Shown piece by piece: positions 29,863 to 34,319 of a DNA stretch of 64,000 nucleotides. The stretch covers positions 124,001 to 188,000 of the forward strand of contig JAFGGC010000001.1 of the NCBI GenBank assembly GCA_016930715.1, in the 5' to 3' direction. Both the position numbers and the translations under genes were made by a program. The notes below the pieces were generated by a model, which saw nothing but the letters and a program-made list of their open reading frames with translations, was not told the DNA's origin and searched no databases. Position 1 is the stretch's first letter, and every line of letters begins with the position of its first letter. The DNA is from Endomicrobiales bacterium. Lineage in GTDB: Bacteria > Elusimicrobiota > Endomicrobiia > Endomicrobiales > JAFGGC01.

Positions 29863-30303
29863 ATTCCCTCATCCGATTGCGCGTCCTATATATAAATAAG
29901 CATGCCACTGTCTCGGTGACGTGATGCGTTTCACCTGATCTTGGATATTTCACTTATCGGAATAGTTGCGGATAGCGGTCGACAACGGTCCTAATGTTGT
30001 CCGGAAGCGGGATGATTGGTGACACGGTACGGTGGATTTGCTTCATCGTTCTGTAGTTATGGTACCACTTATTCCTCATTTGCGCAAGCGGCAGGACAAT
30101 CATTGGAATCCGGCTGGTCCGTATACCGTGCGCTGGCATGGAAAAACTGCCCCTTGGCGGAGCGGTCTCTGATTGTCTCGCCATATGAACGATATAATGC
30201 TGATAGTTCCACCTTGCACTTTCGTGCAAGGTTTCAAGGCCGGCTTGACGGCCCACCCTGCATGGCGCTTGTTTCGTCTTAAATACAGTATTTTAAAAAG
30301 AAC
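29863..30303. other. Stretch without a supported gene
   Basis: Short ORFs on both strands (29954-30256 minus, 30016-30282 plus) overlap each other, lack ribosome sites and resemble nothing I know. A palindrome CCTTGCAC-TTTC-GTGCAAGG lies at 30212-30231 and shares 18 nt with the terminator at 26041. The stretch could hold decayed mobile DNA. Confidence 0.5.
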
Positions 30304-30324
30304 TTGGGGTGGCTAACGGGATTT
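30304..30324. repeat. att-like copy of the tRNA-His 3' end
   Basis: TTGGGGTGGCTAACGGGATTT matches 32065-32085 (the tRNA-His T-arm/acceptor end) at 20 of 21 positions in the same orientation. The direct repeat brackets the GIY-YIG and ATPase genes, as expected for the outer end of an element integrated at a tRNA. Confidence 0.7.
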
Positions 30325-30376
30325 CCTTCGCCAAGCTCAGGATAAAGTGAATTTACCCTGAAGGGTTTGGCGAAGG
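30325..30376. repeat. Palindrome CCTTCGCCAA...TTGGCGAAGG
   Basis: A perfect 10-bp stem (30325-30334 and 30367-30376) has inner CTCAGG/CCCTGA arms. It resembles the widespread CTTCG...CTCAGG repeats and is translated as the C-terminus of the GIY-YIG gene. Confidence 0.7.
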
Positions 30377-30579
30377 GCTTTCAAATTTGCCATTGCCAGT
30401 TTCTTATCCCGTTTCCAGCTTTTTATCTGCTTTTCCCGTTTGGCTGCCTGCTTTGCTTCTATGTGTTTTTCCTGATAGATCAGTTCTGAAGTCTTGTGTT
30501 GCCTTAAGCGATTATGAAGATCAGTAGTGATACCCGTGTAAAGCTTGTTCCCCTTTTTGCATATATAAACATACCACAT
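30337..30579 (-). CDS. GIY-YIG nuclease-domain protein, internally shortened
   Basis: The 80-residue protein starts MWYVYICKKGNKLYTGITTDLHNRLRQH, the GIY-YIG core with its tyrosines and arginine. It continues SELIYQEKHIEAKQAAKREKQIK with the catalytic-type Glu. Compared with the YhbQ-like family, roughly 20-25 residues between RQH and the LIYQE strand are missing, so activity is doubtful. I chose ATG 30579 over the track start because the family begins there and the upstream codons lie in a perfect hairpin. The tail is palindrome-derived. It lies within the tRNA-His att-like bracket. Confidence 0.75.
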   Translation of the reverse strand: MWYVYICKKGNKLYTGITTDLHNRLRQHKTSELIYQEKHIEAKQAAKREKQIKSWKRDKKLAMANLKALRQTLQGKFTLS

Positions 30580-30612
30580 GGCAAATTTGAAATGTCCAAA
30601 CCTGGAATTACC

Positions 30613-30666
30613 GACCCCAAATTTTCCATCGGTGCCCATGAAGGGCACCTTGAAAAATTTGGGGTC
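30613..30666. repeat. Two-stem palindrome GACCCCAAATTTT / AAAATTTGGGGTC
   Basis: A perfect 13-bp outer stem (30613-30625 and 30654-30666) contains a perfect 7-bp inner stem GGTGCCC/GGGCACC (30631-30637, 30643-30649). It lies just upstream of the GIY-YIG start and could form in its leader. It is followed by CGCCGCTAGAACC, faintly like the MITE end. Confidence 0.75.
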
Positions 30667-30746
30667 CCCGGCTGAACGCCGCTAGAACCTGTTTGACGTA
30701 GCAATTATAGCACTAATATCCCGGCAATATCAATCATTTCTGAGAG

Positions 30747-31856
30747 TTAGACAAGACCGTTGAGGAAAGCGATTGCCGGGGCTACGCGTATTCCTTCAGG
30801 AGTCTTATAATCCTTGTTGCCTGCAGCGTGTATCTGCCAAGACGCTACTTCCGGATACCTTACTTTCAGATATCTCAATCCTTTGCTTACTTCATCATCC
30901 CCCCACTTCACCTCAATGAAAGTAATGGGCTTTTCGTTTTCTATGACAACAAAGTCGACTTCCCTGCCGTCTATGTCGCGGAAGTACCGCAACTCCAGAT
31001 CCCTGCCTTTTGTATCTTCTTCAAAATGGACCCATTTCAAAAGATGCGAAGCCACCAGGTTTTCAAATCTCTTCGGCATGTCGCTGACAAGAGACCAGTC
31101 AAAATGATAATGTTTCTGCTCCTTTTTTACAGCCCTTATTTTAGGAGCGCCGAAAGGAGATATCCTGAAAATGGAATACATTCTTTCGAGAATATCCACC
31201 CATTTAGAAAGCGTCTTGTGGCTTAACTGCAGGTCTTCCCTTAATGCATTAATCGAAAGAGGGCTTCCAACCAGTTCCGGAAGCCTCAATACAAGTAGTT
31301 CGAGGTTGCCCAGATCTTTGACATGCTCCAATGATACTACATCTTCCCTCAGGAACCTGTTCCTGTATTCCCTTGACCATCTTTTTGCTTCAACTTTTGA
31401 TTCTCCCAGAAATGGTTCGGGAAAACCGCCTAATTCCAGAAGGTCCATCAGCCCCGAGTTGTTATGCGCTCCGATTTCTTTTACCGACAGTGGATGCAGA
31501 CGCAAATAGTGATAACGCCCCTGCAGCGAATCCCCGCCAAACCTGTACAAGTCAAGCCTTGCGCTTCCCGTGACAAGGATATGCGTTTCCTTGCCGGACT
31601 TGTCGAAAAGCCCTTTGAGGAAGTTCCTCCAGGAACGGTATTTGTGTATTTCATCGAAAATCAATGACTTGGATGCCGGCAGCTGGCCCTTCAAAATCCT
31701 TTCCCTGTGTTCCGGTACATCCCAGTTCAGATAACTTTTCCCGTCAGTAATAACCTGCTTCGCAAGCGTAGTTTTACCCACCTGCCTGGGCCCGCCCAGA
31801 AAAACCATTTTTCTAGACAAATCCCTGCCGATCTGTTCCATCAAATATCTTTTCAT
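30747..31856 (-). CDS. AAA ATPase with DUF4143 nuclease-like domain
   Basis: The 369-residue protein is of the AAA_14-DUF4143 type. Walker A is GGPRQVGKTT (about residues 21-30), Walker B is LIFDEIHK, and the sensor-like VTGSARLD follows. A C-terminal PD-(D/E)XK-like core is present in REVDFVV...ITFIEVKWG. The family is common in mobile and accessory DNA, with unclear function (defence or toxin-like roles have been suggested). It lies between the two att-like copies of the tRNA-His end. Its codon use looks more AT-rich than the neighbouring core genes, consistent with transfer. Confidence 0.88.
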   Translation of the reverse strand: MKRYLMEQIGRDLSRKMVFLGGPRQVGKTTLAKQVITDGKSYLNWDVPEHRERILKGQLPASKSLIFDEIHKYRSWRNFLKGLFDKSGKETHILVTGSARLDLYRFGGDSLQGRYHYLRLHPLSVKEIGAHNNSGLMDLLELGGFPEPFLGESKVEAKRWSREYRNRFLREDVVSLEHVKDLGNLELLVLRLPELVGSPLSINALREDLQLSHKTLSKWVDILERMYSIFRISPFGAPKIRAVKKEQKHYHFDWSLVSDMPKRFENLVASHLLKWVHFEEDTKGRDLELRYFRDIDGREVDFVVIENEKPITFIEVKWGDDEVSKGLRYLKVRYPEVASWQIHAAGNKDYKTPEGIRVAPAIAFLNGLV

Positions 31857-31923
31857 GGTTTAAGTATACTACTATTTATACCCTATGTCAAATATACTCG
31901 CGAGTATTTTTGCCTCTCCCGCA

Positions 31924-31977
31924 AACAAAAAAACAACAGGTTCGTCTGCCCGCTGATGAGGTTCGAACCTGTTGTTT
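31924..31977 (-). terminator. Rho-independent terminator downstream of tRNA-His
   Basis: On the minus strand AACAACAGGTTCG (revcomp 31964-31976) pairs perfectly over 13 bp with CGAACCTGTTGTT, followed by a T7 run. It lies about 90 nt past the tRNA-His CCA end, ahead of the ATPase gene start. Confidence 0.75.
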
Positions 31978-32064
31978 CCGTCTAAGAACGCCGTTTACGC
32001 CCCCCTAGGGGTGTATTGCTTTTCTGTTCAATATCTTACTGATATTTCAATCTGTTTCTAAAAG

Positions 32065-32085
32065 TTGGGGTGGCTGACGGGATTT
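32065..32085. repeat. att-like core within the tRNA-His 3' end
   Basis: TTGGGGTGGCTGACGGGATTT is the tRNA-proximal copy of the 21-nt direct repeat also found at 30304-30324. Confidence 0.7.
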
Positions 32086-32143
32086 GAACCCGCAACCTCC
32101 GGAGCCACAGTCCAGCGCTCTAACCAATTGAGCTACAACCACC
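32066..32143 (-). tRNA. tRNA-His (anticodon GTG)
   Basis: The minus strand folds as a complete cloverleaf: acceptor GTGGTTG/CAGCCAC, D-arm GCTC/GAGC, anticodon arm CTGGA-CTGTGGC-TCCGG with GTG, and T-loop TTCAAAT. An extra 5' G opposite discriminator C is the His-specific G-1 identity element. The 3' CCA is encoded. Confidence 0.95.
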
Positions 32144-32152
32144 AATTTCGCG

Positions 32153-32239
32153 CCCTTTCGGGCTTATCCCGCCTGCGGCGGGATTGTTCCGGCTTGTCGG
32201 CGCCGGAACGCTCTACAAGGGGAAACCTAAGGTTTCCCC
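32153..32239. repeat. Run of small hairpins between the two tRNA genes
   Basis: Four palindromes stand in series: GCCCTTTCGGGC, CCCGCC-TGC-GGCGGG-type, TTCCGGC...GCGCCGGAA and GGGGAAACC-TAA-GGTTTCCCC (32219-32239, perfect 9-bp stem). None has a T-tract. They may be RNA-processing sites or stacked repeat insertions. No gene is seen between 32144 and 32532. Confidence 0.55.
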
Positions 32240-32371
32240 GTTTCATCGTCGCTCGGCTTCGGTTCTTATGAATCTACCAGTCCTCAGCCTCGCTGAACCC
32301 CTTCCTGAGTTGAAAGAACCTTTAAGTAGTTTGTCAGGCCAACCCGTTCATACCTTTAGCATTCCAAGGTG

Positions 32372-32528
32372 CTTTGTCAGGGGCACTCGGTTTCCAGCGA
32401 AAGAGCGAAATTTGAGGCGAAACGAAGGAATTTTCGACGAAGCTTAGCAACGCTAAGTTAGGAGAAAATTCTTAAGTCGCAGCCCAAATTTCGCTCTTGC
32501 AGCGGAAATAAGGGTGCCCCTGCCAAAG
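32372..32528. repeat. 157-nt multi-stem palindrome beside tRNA-Arg
   Basis: Nested arms pair in order. CTTTGTCAGGGGCAC (32372-32386) pairs with GTGCCCCTGCCAAAG (32514-32528), 14/15. AGAGCGAAATTTG (32402-32414) pairs with CAAATTTCGCTCT (32485-32497), perfect 13. GAATTTTC (32428-32435) pairs with GAAAATTC (32464-32471). TTAGC-AAC-GCTAA (32444-32456) closes the hairpin. It ends 4 nt from the tRNA-Arg 3' end. Confidence 0.8.
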
Positions 32529-32571
32529 TACACGTCTCCGGCGTGACTCGAACACGCAACCCTCTGCTTAG

Positions 32572-33225
32572 CTTACTACTCTGAATTGCTTCAGCCCCCG
32601 CCGAGGCGGGGTTGTAGTCTGGACTATGTCTTCACCGTTTCAGGTGTGCAGCGTATAGTCTCTGAGGGCTCTCTATTTAAGCAACAAATAGTCTTTTGCC
32701 CATTTAACATGCCTTAACTGGTTATTGCCAGTTTTTTCAAAACGAATTGCTTTTGGACAACCCTTTTTGTTAGGCAAATACACAACAACGTCTTTCTCGG
32801 GACAATAGATCGCATAGCAATCGAAATCACTCGGCTGATATGTTCTGGTATGAACACCCTTGCTGTCGCTCCAGCTTGTTCTGAATTTGACATCAATGGT
32901 GCCGTTACTTCTAAGAGCAGCATACTTTACCTGCAGCTTTATTGCCTTTCCTTTTCTGCTTACGGCAATTAAATCAAAAGGTTGATGTTCCGACAAAGGC
33001 ACACATGGAACAAATCCTTTCAAAGTAAGGTCAGCAATAACGTTTGCCACTCCACTATCAGCCTTGATCTTCGTGTGATGCAATCCTTGCCCTCCCCTTA
33101 AAGACTTGGACAAGACTACCGTTCTCAATAGGTTGCCTGCAAATTGCCCCGATTTGTGAAGGGGTGTTCTTGCAAATAGCTGCATGCATTCCACATATTT
33201 TTTTCTATGTGGAAGCTCCTTAATG
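32572..33225 (-). ncRNA. Group I self-splicing intron in tRNA-Arg, 654 nt, with endonuclease ORF
   Basis: All paired elements occur in canonical order. P1 is CCTT/AAGG around the 5' splice site after T. P2 is TTCCACATA/TATGTGGAA (33189-33214). The P3 5' strand TGCAGC (33179-33184) pairs with GCTGCA (32647-32652). P7 is GACTA (32656-32660) with TAGTC (32622-32626). P8 is CACC/GGTG (32633-32646). P9 is CCCCGCC/GGCGGGG (32596-32611). The last intron base is G. The ORF occupies the loop region between the P3 5' strand and P7. The P1 pair at the splice site reads U-A in the best register, not the usual U-G, so the exact IGS register is unsure. Confidence 0.9.
32673..33083 (-). CDS. Group I intron-encoded PD-(D/E)XK homing endonuclease
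   Basis: The 136-residue protein starts at TTG 33083 with GGGGAGG upstream. The track start at 33194 would run through intron core structures. It reads MHHTKIKADSGVANVIADLTLKGFVPCVPLSEHQPFDLIAV...IKLQVKYAAL, matching the group I intron-associated PD-(D/E)XK family typified by I-Ssp6803I. The candidate active site is Asp of PFDLI plus Gln-x-Lys of QVKY. It should cut intronless tRNA-Arg alleles and drive intron homing. The TAG stop lies just before the 3' core. No LAGLIDADG or HNH motif is present. Confidence 0.9.
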   Translation of the reverse strand: MHHTKIKADSGVANVIADLTLKGFVPCVPLSEHQPFDLIAVSRKGKAIKLQVKYAALRSNGTIDVKFRTSWSDSKGVHTRTYQPSDFDCYAIYCPEKDVVVYLPNKKGCPKAIRFEKTGNNQLRHVKWAKDYLLLK

Positions 33226-33305
33226 AAGGCAGATGCTCTATCCAGTTGAGCTACGGAGACACTAATTTACAACATTTAAAAGAGCAACTTTGGGTTCGCT
33301 AAAGC

Positions 33306-33335
33306 ATTATAACAAAGAACCAACATCATAGTCAA
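33306..33335 (-). promoter_or_regulatory. Promoter of the tRNA-Arg/intron transcript
   Basis: On the minus strand TTGACT (33330-33335) and TATAAT (33306-33311) are 18 nt apart. Initiation near 33299 would give a short tRNA leader. Confidence 0.7.
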
Positions 33336-33377
33336 TTTACCGTCAATGTACAGTTCGAAATATAGCTGTATTTTTAG

Positions 33378-34319
33378 CTATTTTCCGCAGAACCTGGCAG
33401 CGGCAAGCAGGGCTTCGGCCATCGAACCGGGGTCGGCAACGCCTTTTCCCGCTATGTCGAACGCAGTCCCGTGGCCGGGAGAGGTACGCACGTACGGAAG
33501 GCCAACTGTAATGTTCACAACTTTTTCCGGAGCGAAAAATTTTAGAGGTATCATCACCTGTTCGTGGTACATCGCGACGAGAAGGTCGTATTTACCCTGT
33601 TTCATCTTGACCCAGGCCGCGTCGGGCGGCATCGGGCCCGAAACGTCAATACCTTTGCGAGTCAGCACCCTTACGGCAGGGGCGACTATTTTCTCATCTT
33701 CATTCCCTATGAGCCCGCCATCGCCGGCGTGGGGGTTCAAAGAGCACACTACCACTCTTGGCCTGCGTATCCCGGCGTATTTCCTAATAAAACTCTCGGC
33801 CAGGACCGCCGTCTCCGCTATCTTTCCTGGAGTCAGCTTGGCGCTGACCTTCGCTACCGGCACGTGCCTCGTGACCATCACCGTGTTGTACGGCCCGGCC
33901 GACATCATCATTCCGAACTTCCTGACTTTCGCGATACCTGCTATCAGCTCGGTATGGCCGATGAAGTCCAGCCCCGCCGATTTTATGACTTCCTTTGAGA
34001 CGGGGGCCGTCACTATGCCGGGCACTTCCCTTTTCATCGCCATCCCGGCGGCCCTTACCACGCATTCGTAAGCCAGCCGGCCGGTAACCGCCGAGGGCTT
34101 CCCGAACCTTATCTTCCCGCCCCCTGGCACCTTCACGTCGGCAAGTTCGAAGTCAAAACCGGCCCTGAACAGCCCGGCTTTTTTCAATACCTCGGCGTTG
34201 CCCACTATGACGGGCCTGAGCGCCCTTTTCACGGACGGGTACATAAGCGCCCTGACCAGTATCTCAGGGCCTATGCCCGCCGGGTCTCCCATGGTAATGG
34301 CGATTTTCGGAGCAACCAT
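33378..34319 (-). CDS. pdxA: 4-hydroxythreonine-4-phosphate dehydrogenase
   Basis: The 313-residue enzyme oxidises 4-phosphohydroxy-L-threonine in the DXP-dependent pyridoxal-phosphate pathway. Family landmarks are the opening KIAITMGDPAGIGPEIL, GHTELIA (metal-ligand His), SLNPHAGDGGLIGNED and the C-terminal GLPYVRTSPGHGTAFDIAGKG. Its length is typical. It is the last gene of a run with two parvulin-type chaperones upstream (47-nt gap). A weak AT-rich hairpin overlaps its stop. Confidence 0.96.
   Translation of the reverse strand: MVAPKIAITMGDPAGIGPEILVRALMYPSVKRALRPVIVGNAEVLKKAGLFRAGFDFELADVKVPGGGKIRFGKPSAVTGRLAYECVVRAAGMAMKREVPGIVTAPVSKEVIKSAGLDFIGHTELIAGIAKVRKFGMMMSAGPYNTVMVTRHVPVAKVSAKLTPGKIAETAVLAESFIRKYAGIRRPRVVVCSLNPHAGDGGLIGNEDEKIVAPAVRVLTRKGIDVSGPMPPDAAWVKMKQGKYDLLVAMYHEQVMIPLKFFAPEKVVNITVGLPYVRTSPGHGTAFDIAGKGVADPGSMAEALLAAARFCGK

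Follow-up and report, generated by a model that had tools for sequence, protein, structure and literature searches.

A putative integrase-free mobile element with a short GIY-YIG nuclease gene behind tRNA-His of an Endomicrobiales bacterium, and loci of the same plan at other tRNA genes

tRNA genes are classical landing sites of genomic islands, which are normally put down to tyrosine integrases. Homing endonucleases of the SegB type spread by homologous recombination without doubling their target, and in fungal mitochondria there are elements that combine an endonuclease gene with a replaced or doubled gene 3' end, the host gene surviving. Here we analyzed a 64,000-nucleotide stretch of the genome of an Endomicrobiales bacterium (assembly GCA_016930715.1, contig JAFGGC010000001.1, positions 124,001 to 188,000), henceforth referred to as the window. 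It contains, directly downstream of an intact tRNA-His gene, a 1.76-kb element (30305..32065, minus strand) that runs from just past the tRNA 3' end through a second copy of that end. The order is tRNA, GIY-YIG gene, terminal stem-loop and copy of the tRNA 3' end, and it recurs at other tRNA genes. We put the probability at roughly 0.7 that the interval belongs to a recurrent class of integrase-free mobile elements that settle at tRNA genes and whose GIY-YIG nuclease cuts the T-loop. The fungal mitochondrial elements differ from it in occupying protein genes of organelles.

Several described systems share part of this plan. Islands and satellites integrated at tRNA genes by tyrosine integrases likewise occupy the tRNA 3' end, show a direct repeat, leave the tRNA whole and carry defence-like cargo, but the element has no integrase, a fixed stem-loop beside the repeat and, among its small relatives, complete units of 300–377 bp. 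REP/RAYT sequences and miniature inverted-repeat transposable elements (MITEs) resemble it in having gene-less stem-loop copies that share an end of the gene-bearing copy, whereas the element encodes a GIY-YIG protein where those have a Y1 or DDE transposase and shows a T-loop insertion with a 19-base duplication. The repeats of Escherichia coli tyrT/tyrV (rttR, tpr) each contain the last 19 bases of tRNA-Tyr, from A58 onward; in strain K-12 the unit AATCCTTCCCCCACCACCA, corresponding to tRNA-Tyr A58–A76, occurs six times (L247), in two tRNAs and four more times. They differ in having no GIY-YIG gene, no such stem-loop and another preceding sequence, and their relation to the elements is unproven and a lead only. 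SegB of the T-even phages is, like the protein of the element, a GIY-YIG enzyme encoded beside tRNA genes. Its description (PMC13096335) presents SegB of phage T6 as a homing endonuclease whose cuts fall inside tRNA genes, places this phage gene in a tRNA array, describes amplification by homologous recombination, and in the sections concerned mentions neither a terminal stem-loop nor gene-less copies nor a duplicated 19-base tRNA end. The Tsy transposon is mobile and can include a GIY-YIG nuclease gene but is reported to be driven by tyrosine recombinases, at comM, and not to depend on its GIY-YIG gene (PMC10293859, Mol Cell 2023). Because the combination found here fits none of the tested families we rate it as new, although its parts (GIY-YIG nucleases, tRNA targeting and MITE-like copies) are already known; we found no description of this element class in the open-licence literature.

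A first-pass annotation of the window had reported a direct repeat of the tRNA-His 3' end, and the repeat held up. The segments 30304–30324 and 32065–32085 agree at 20 of 21 positions in the same orientation, and a search with the 21-nt repeat at ≤3 mismatches returned just these two matches in the window and none in 100 shuffles. Across the whole genome (2.30 Mb, 45 contigs), the 19-base core with <3 mismatches was found only as the two window copies; at 3 mismatches there were two further places, and the reversed control likewise gave 2. The shuffles and the whole-genome pattern search rule out a chance repeat, and an ordinary dispersed repeat, which would show as a many-copy pattern, is ruled out by there being just two copies. 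We refined the repeated unit to tRNA positions A58–A76, of which the first copy (32066..32084, minus strand) lies within the functional tRNA and the second (30305..30323, minus strand) differs from it by 1 mismatch in 19. The two copies bound the element. The target gene, tRNA-His(gtg) at 32066..32142 on the minus strand, is intact (ARAGORN; Rfam tRNA, 68.5 bits). The tRNA-His of the relative G001 has the A allele found in the window's tRNA fragment, although a single base cannot date either copy.

The gene nearest the second copy (30337..30579, minus strand, likely start at 30579, reading frame open to 30648) encodes a short GIY-YIG protein (PF01541, E=1.1e-8, 35.6 bits against a cut-off of 22.6; model pLDDT 81). 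Residues Y5, Y14, G16, R24 and E49, which we take to be catalytic, are invariant across the alignment of the short GIY-YIG subfamily. The closest solved structures are the UPF0213 entries 1zg2 and 1ywl, and about 12 residues of ordinary small GIY-YIG proteins are missing. The terminal stem-loop (30325..30377, minus strand; fold −27 kcal/mol) ends in GCGAAGG, adjoins R57 and the second copy, stops one base short of the second A58–A76 copy and has counterparts at the same position in relatives. Pfam confirmed that the two genes between the repeat copies are those named in the first-pass annotation, a GIY-YIG nuclease and an AAA_14/DUF4143 ATPase, and it revealed neither an integrase nor a Y1 (HUH) transposase in the element. 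No intron core surrounds the GIY-YIG gene: an Rfam search of 29900–33400 at E≤1 gave an intron only at 32597–32781, outside the element.

We scanned contigs with both short GIY-YIG proteins of this genome as queries and kept the best 80 matches. These included six close relatives (L101–L106) in records labelled Desulfohalobiaceae, Desulfobacterales, Fermentibacteria/Aegiribacteria and Sumerlaeota, five of which sit 38–84 bp downstream of a same-strand tRNA, while the sixth starts near a contig end; the order at such loci is that of the window. An alignment-based search detected the short protein in 10 of 395 genomes of one phylum (that of G296) and 7 of 42 of another (that of G295), a patchy distribution. 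The short subfamily now comprises 21 distinct loci from at least four phyla, namely the window, the second copy in the same genome at tRNA-Asn (L088, within L248), L101–L106 and L192–L204. A same-strand tRNA lies upstream in 18 of the 21. L195, L199 and L204 were left out of the copy count owing to a contig end or a gene cut short, and a copy of the tRNA 3' end is present in 13 of 15 assessable loci (window, L248, L101 together with L191, L102–L105, L192–L194, L196, L202 and L203). Two loci near contig starts have no tRNA in view; L201 has the stem-loop and the 3'-end copy, and L106 has no copy.

Junctions were tabulated for 12 loci, omitting L101/L191, which is split over two contigs. Over A58–A76 the copies differ from the tRNA by 0–1 mismatches, position R57 is equal in 11 of 12 and C56 in 0 of 12, and wherever a copy is present the 19-base doubling stands at the junction. 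This sharp edge after C56 indicates the T-loop. The distance between both 3'-end copies is 300–377 bp in 10 of the 12, and the host tRNAs of gene-bearing loci are tRNA-Asn, tRNA-Arg(ACG), tRNA-Arg(CCG) and tRNA-His. In the gene tree, whose branching is not firm given the short protein, the tRNA-Asn copy of our genome groups with L195–L198 and L200 and the tRNA-His copy falls outside. Phages and plasmids yielded one weak subfamily match each (~40% identity) and viral contigs four weak relatives (32–35% identity). A DNA search of plasmids with a whole element returned no record covering 80% of the query, and the five listed matches span 76–98 bases at its tRNA end. For comparison, ordinary small GIY-YIG genes lie near tRNAs at 5 of 11 loci outside our genome (L080, L082, L084, L086 and L087) and within 1 kb of one in 11 of 74 (L107–L180); except at L124, the tRNA-adjacent ones showed no 3'-end copy. 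The first-pass annotation had held that conservation of the arrangement across distant relatives would speak against an integrated element. The arrangement does recur, yet at different tRNAs in scattered genomes, which is the behaviour expected of a mobile element.

The second short-type GIY-YIG protein of the genome is encoded in an island at tRNA-Asn (L248:683-756). This tRNA and the copy of its 3' end share 20 identical bases 8,787 bp apart, and the GIY-YIG gene, the terminal stem-loop and the 3'-end copy follow one another in that order. Both short GIY-YIG genes of the genome therefore end islands bracketed by the 3' end of their tRNA. The interior holds an RHS/teneurin-like gene and three smaller open reading frames (ORFs). 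Some islands of this plan carry other genes: DUF4143 in the window, the RHS/teneurin-like gene at tRNA-Asn and a Fic gene in another genome. Within the 8.8-kb island (L248:683-9545, contig C30), the RHS/teneurin-like gene encodes 2,019 aa and is accompanied by a C-terminal-like fragment of that family. Just upstream of the tRNA-Asn, at L248:277-636, lies a gene for a 23S rRNA intervening-sequence protein (PF05635).

Gene-less copies of the stem-loop were sought with a blind pattern, GTGARYTTRYCCTGAGC-N(2-20)-GAAGG, that imposes nothing on the following bases. It matched in 10 of 13 genomes and the reversed pattern gave 0. At the 30 sites, RA came next in 28 and CCA stood exactly at nt 18–20 in 22. 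Where a same-strand tRNA lay ≤1.5 kb upstream (17 sites), its 3' end was repeated in 14 (≤2 mismatches in 19), compared with 33 of 31,911 positions taken at random. Gene-bearing loci counted above account for 5 of the 17 sites, which leaves 9 of 12 for gene-less ones; the gene-less copies share the ends of the gene-bearing ones, as MITE-like copies do. Gene-less copies occur at nine isoacceptors (Gln, Glu, Ala, Leu, Lys, Ser and three Arg), each repeating the resident tRNA's own 3' end. This list draws on the blind-pattern sites plus matches among loci of a second pattern (49 sites, 26 loci inspected), which itself requires RANYC, so that only agreement past that motif counts. The shortest copies leave 22 bp from tRNA to stem-loop. 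R57 is shared in only 8 of 16 gene-less copies, against 11 of 12 GIY-YIG loci, and we therefore write the breakpoint as (R57)A58. The two inner pairs of the stem-loop co-vary (in 5 and 4 of 21 sequences), and 97.3% of cells are paired, compared with ≤45% in slid controls. In a survey of one phylum (42 genomes), all 7 gene-bearing genomes also have the stem-loop. At a further locus, L235:5555-19369, copies of the tRNA-Glu 3' end stand in tandem at distances of up to 5.7 kb; one interval contains a Fic gene with a match to SoFic, and repeated ORFs of ~228 aa between the copies have no Pfam match.

We compared the locus with its nearest relatives, none of them closer than the order level. In most of 14 stretches from these relatives, the annotated tRNA-Arg(tct) and tRNA-His genes are neighbours. 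A copy of the 3' end downstream of tRNA-His was found at 0 of 42 distinct loci in relatives (36 of them with at least 1.3 kb to view), and 1 of 106 background tRNAs had such a copy. These counts uphold the earlier claim of an element inserted at the 3' end of a tRNA that was left whole. The annotation had also proposed looking for the empty site in related genomes; only the tRNA-Arg(tct)/tRNA-His pair proved conserved, and since the outer genes are not, an exact empty site with both flanks is not demonstrable. The nearest radical-SAM homologue lies in G001, and the 2.4 kb read next to it contain no tRNA-His.

We infer that mobility is driven by the nuclease. The GIY-YIG protein would cut tRNA genes in the T-loop, at the GTTC-RAN boundary, and repair of the break would double the 19-base 3' end and leave the body and the stem-loop behind the tRNA. 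Because the 3' end is doubled, the tRNA would never be lost, and an essential gene would become a safe landing site. Since each copy agrees with its resident tRNA irrespective of isoacceptor, the target itself is the most likely source of the doubled block, as in a target-site duplication. The stem-loop end might be joined to A58 through homing repair over the 19 bases or through a transposase-like hairpin step. An autonomous copy would supply the nuclease that moves gene-less copies, much as a transposase does for MITEs. The SegB study reports an enriched motif, RAWTSGAAC, at 23 of 83 sites, which enhances cutting and is not strictly required (PMC13096335). On the other strand this motif reads GTTCSAWTY, in our own reading the T-loop consensus, and by analogy it supports T-loop cutting by the putative nuclease of the element.

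The first-pass annotation had instead favored an integrated element whose tyrosine integrase was lost, or a satellite mobilized in trans; the tRNA-His 3' end would then be attB and the GIY-YIG gene mere cargo. T-loop-type integrase sites do look like a 3'-end repeat that starts in the T-loop, and four integrase-family matches exist in the genome, but none of these is on the window's contig (C28) and none adjoins another tRNA-His 3' end. The window element contains no integrase, and the 300–377 bp between copies in the small relatives leave no room for one. The same short GIY-YIG subfamily stands at the same spot in several phyla, with a second case in this genome at tRNA-Asn, and gene-less copies go down to 22 bp between tRNA and stem-loop. 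Both versions of the integrase proposal are unsupported by these data, help in trans keeping some residual probability, and we regard such an origin as unlikely. A little less probable still is that the stem-loop is moved by another host or mobile function while the GIY-YIG protein is a hitch-hiker near tRNAs, perhaps cutting and not driving insertion. The E. coli tyrT/tyrV copies, which have the 19 bases and no GIY-YIG gene, fit such an account, as do the stem-loops in genomes without the gene and the ordinary GIY-YIG genes near tRNAs without a copy; it is opposed by the stem-loops in 7 of 7 gene-bearing genomes and by the position of the gene within the element at 13 of the 15 loci that can be assessed. 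Finally, the tRNA 3' end might have been doubled by slippage or unequal recombination with no mobile element at all. Tandem arrays of 3' ends are seen at L104, one tRNA-Glu locus and E. coli tyrT/tyrV, and 19-base repeats can recombine. Random duplication, on the other hand, gives no fixed edge or neighbour, and a specific process is needed to explain why, in several phyla and at many isoacceptors, the copy starts at (R57)A58 beside a conserved stem-loop. We consider slippage largely refuted and very improbable.

Several observations weigh against nuclease-driven insertion at tRNA genes as the account of this locus. Among the same-order relatives we found no exact empty site that retains both flanks. 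L197 and L198 have the gene and a tRNA but no 3'-end copy; at L200 both the tRNA and the copy are missing. Three of the 17 stem-loops near tRNAs mismatch that tRNA (L206, at a tRNA-Ser of our own genome, L213 and the second L227 site), and our genome has one blind-pattern site only, near tRNA-Ser and without a full copy. The stem-loop is also present in 8 of the 35 genomes of the surveyed phylum that have no gene, and the 7 of 7 co-occurrence may owe something to shared ancestry. The GIY-YIG protein of the window is a nuclease by prediction from its sequence. The DUF4143 gene could be a later, separate insertion, and the data fit both histories alike. A regenerated T-loop should also be recut unless the recognition site is longer; a site extending past the tRNA end would prevent self-cutting.

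The larger gene of the element (30747..31856, minus strand) encodes an AAA_14 and DUF4143 ATPase assigned by PADLOC to the candidate defence family PDC-S01 (E=4.6e-49). It is probably element cargo and a candidate defence gene. Close homologues are patchy, with 52 of 294 genomes at E≤1e-60. In two genomes of different families (L091 in G085 and L092 in G203), the DUF4143 gene and its printed flanks look identical, reflecting either recent transfer or contamination. The palindromes noted in the first-pass annotation are real. A 15-bp perfect inverted repeat found by palindrome search surrounds the GIY-YIG core (30379–30393 and 30578–30592), and an intergenic hairpin lies upstream of the GIY-YIG gene (30611..30672), where microRNA-family matches fell under threshold and were treated as chance. 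Another palindrome lies in the DUF4143 promoter region (31889..31912), with similar sequence 5' of several homologues as compared by eye. The terminator-like hairpin (31931..31977, minus strand), with its T run on the tRNA strand, is just downstream of the tRNA.

The neighbouring tRNA-Arg(UCU) (32532–33261, minus strand) is interrupted by a 654-nt insert resembling a group I intron (~33225–32572), which encodes a PDDEXK_5 endonuclease (32673–33194); the joined exons form a clean tRNA-Arg(tct), and ARAGORN missed the split gene. Between tRNA-Arg and tRNA-His there is no convincing copy of the tRNA-Arg 3' end (best, 4 mismatches in 16). This gap of ~390 bp (32143–32530) contains inverted repeats, of which similar versions occur at other places in the genome and in some relatives; in the tRNA-Asn island, the GIY-YIG gene is flanked by a similar repeat. 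In G001, an open stretch bounded by TAAGTATTGTGTCCCCAAAT copies follows tRNA-His (L070:1-1330), another sign that the tRNA-His spot collects small insertions. The same genome has a 3'-end copy 156 bp past tRNA-Ala(ggc) (L070:9901-10150), and TGAGGAGCGAAGCGACGA is common to the stretch before this copy and the E. coli tyrT repeats.

A broader proposal, which we see as evenly balanced between true and false, is that a widespread integrase-free class exists in which a GIY-YIG protein of ~65–80 aa opens T-loops and leaves the 19-base duplication, mobilization in trans extends to gene-less stem-loop copies and to islands with defence- or toxin-like cargo, and the E. coli tyrT repeats are fossils left by this process or a parallel one. 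If true, it would offer one explanation for tRNA islands without an integrase, for many partial-tRNA annotations and for stem-loop repeats beside tRNAs, and it would link the biology of phage SegB to chromosomal islands. It would also provide a compact testable system made of one small protein, one stem-loop and one universal target.

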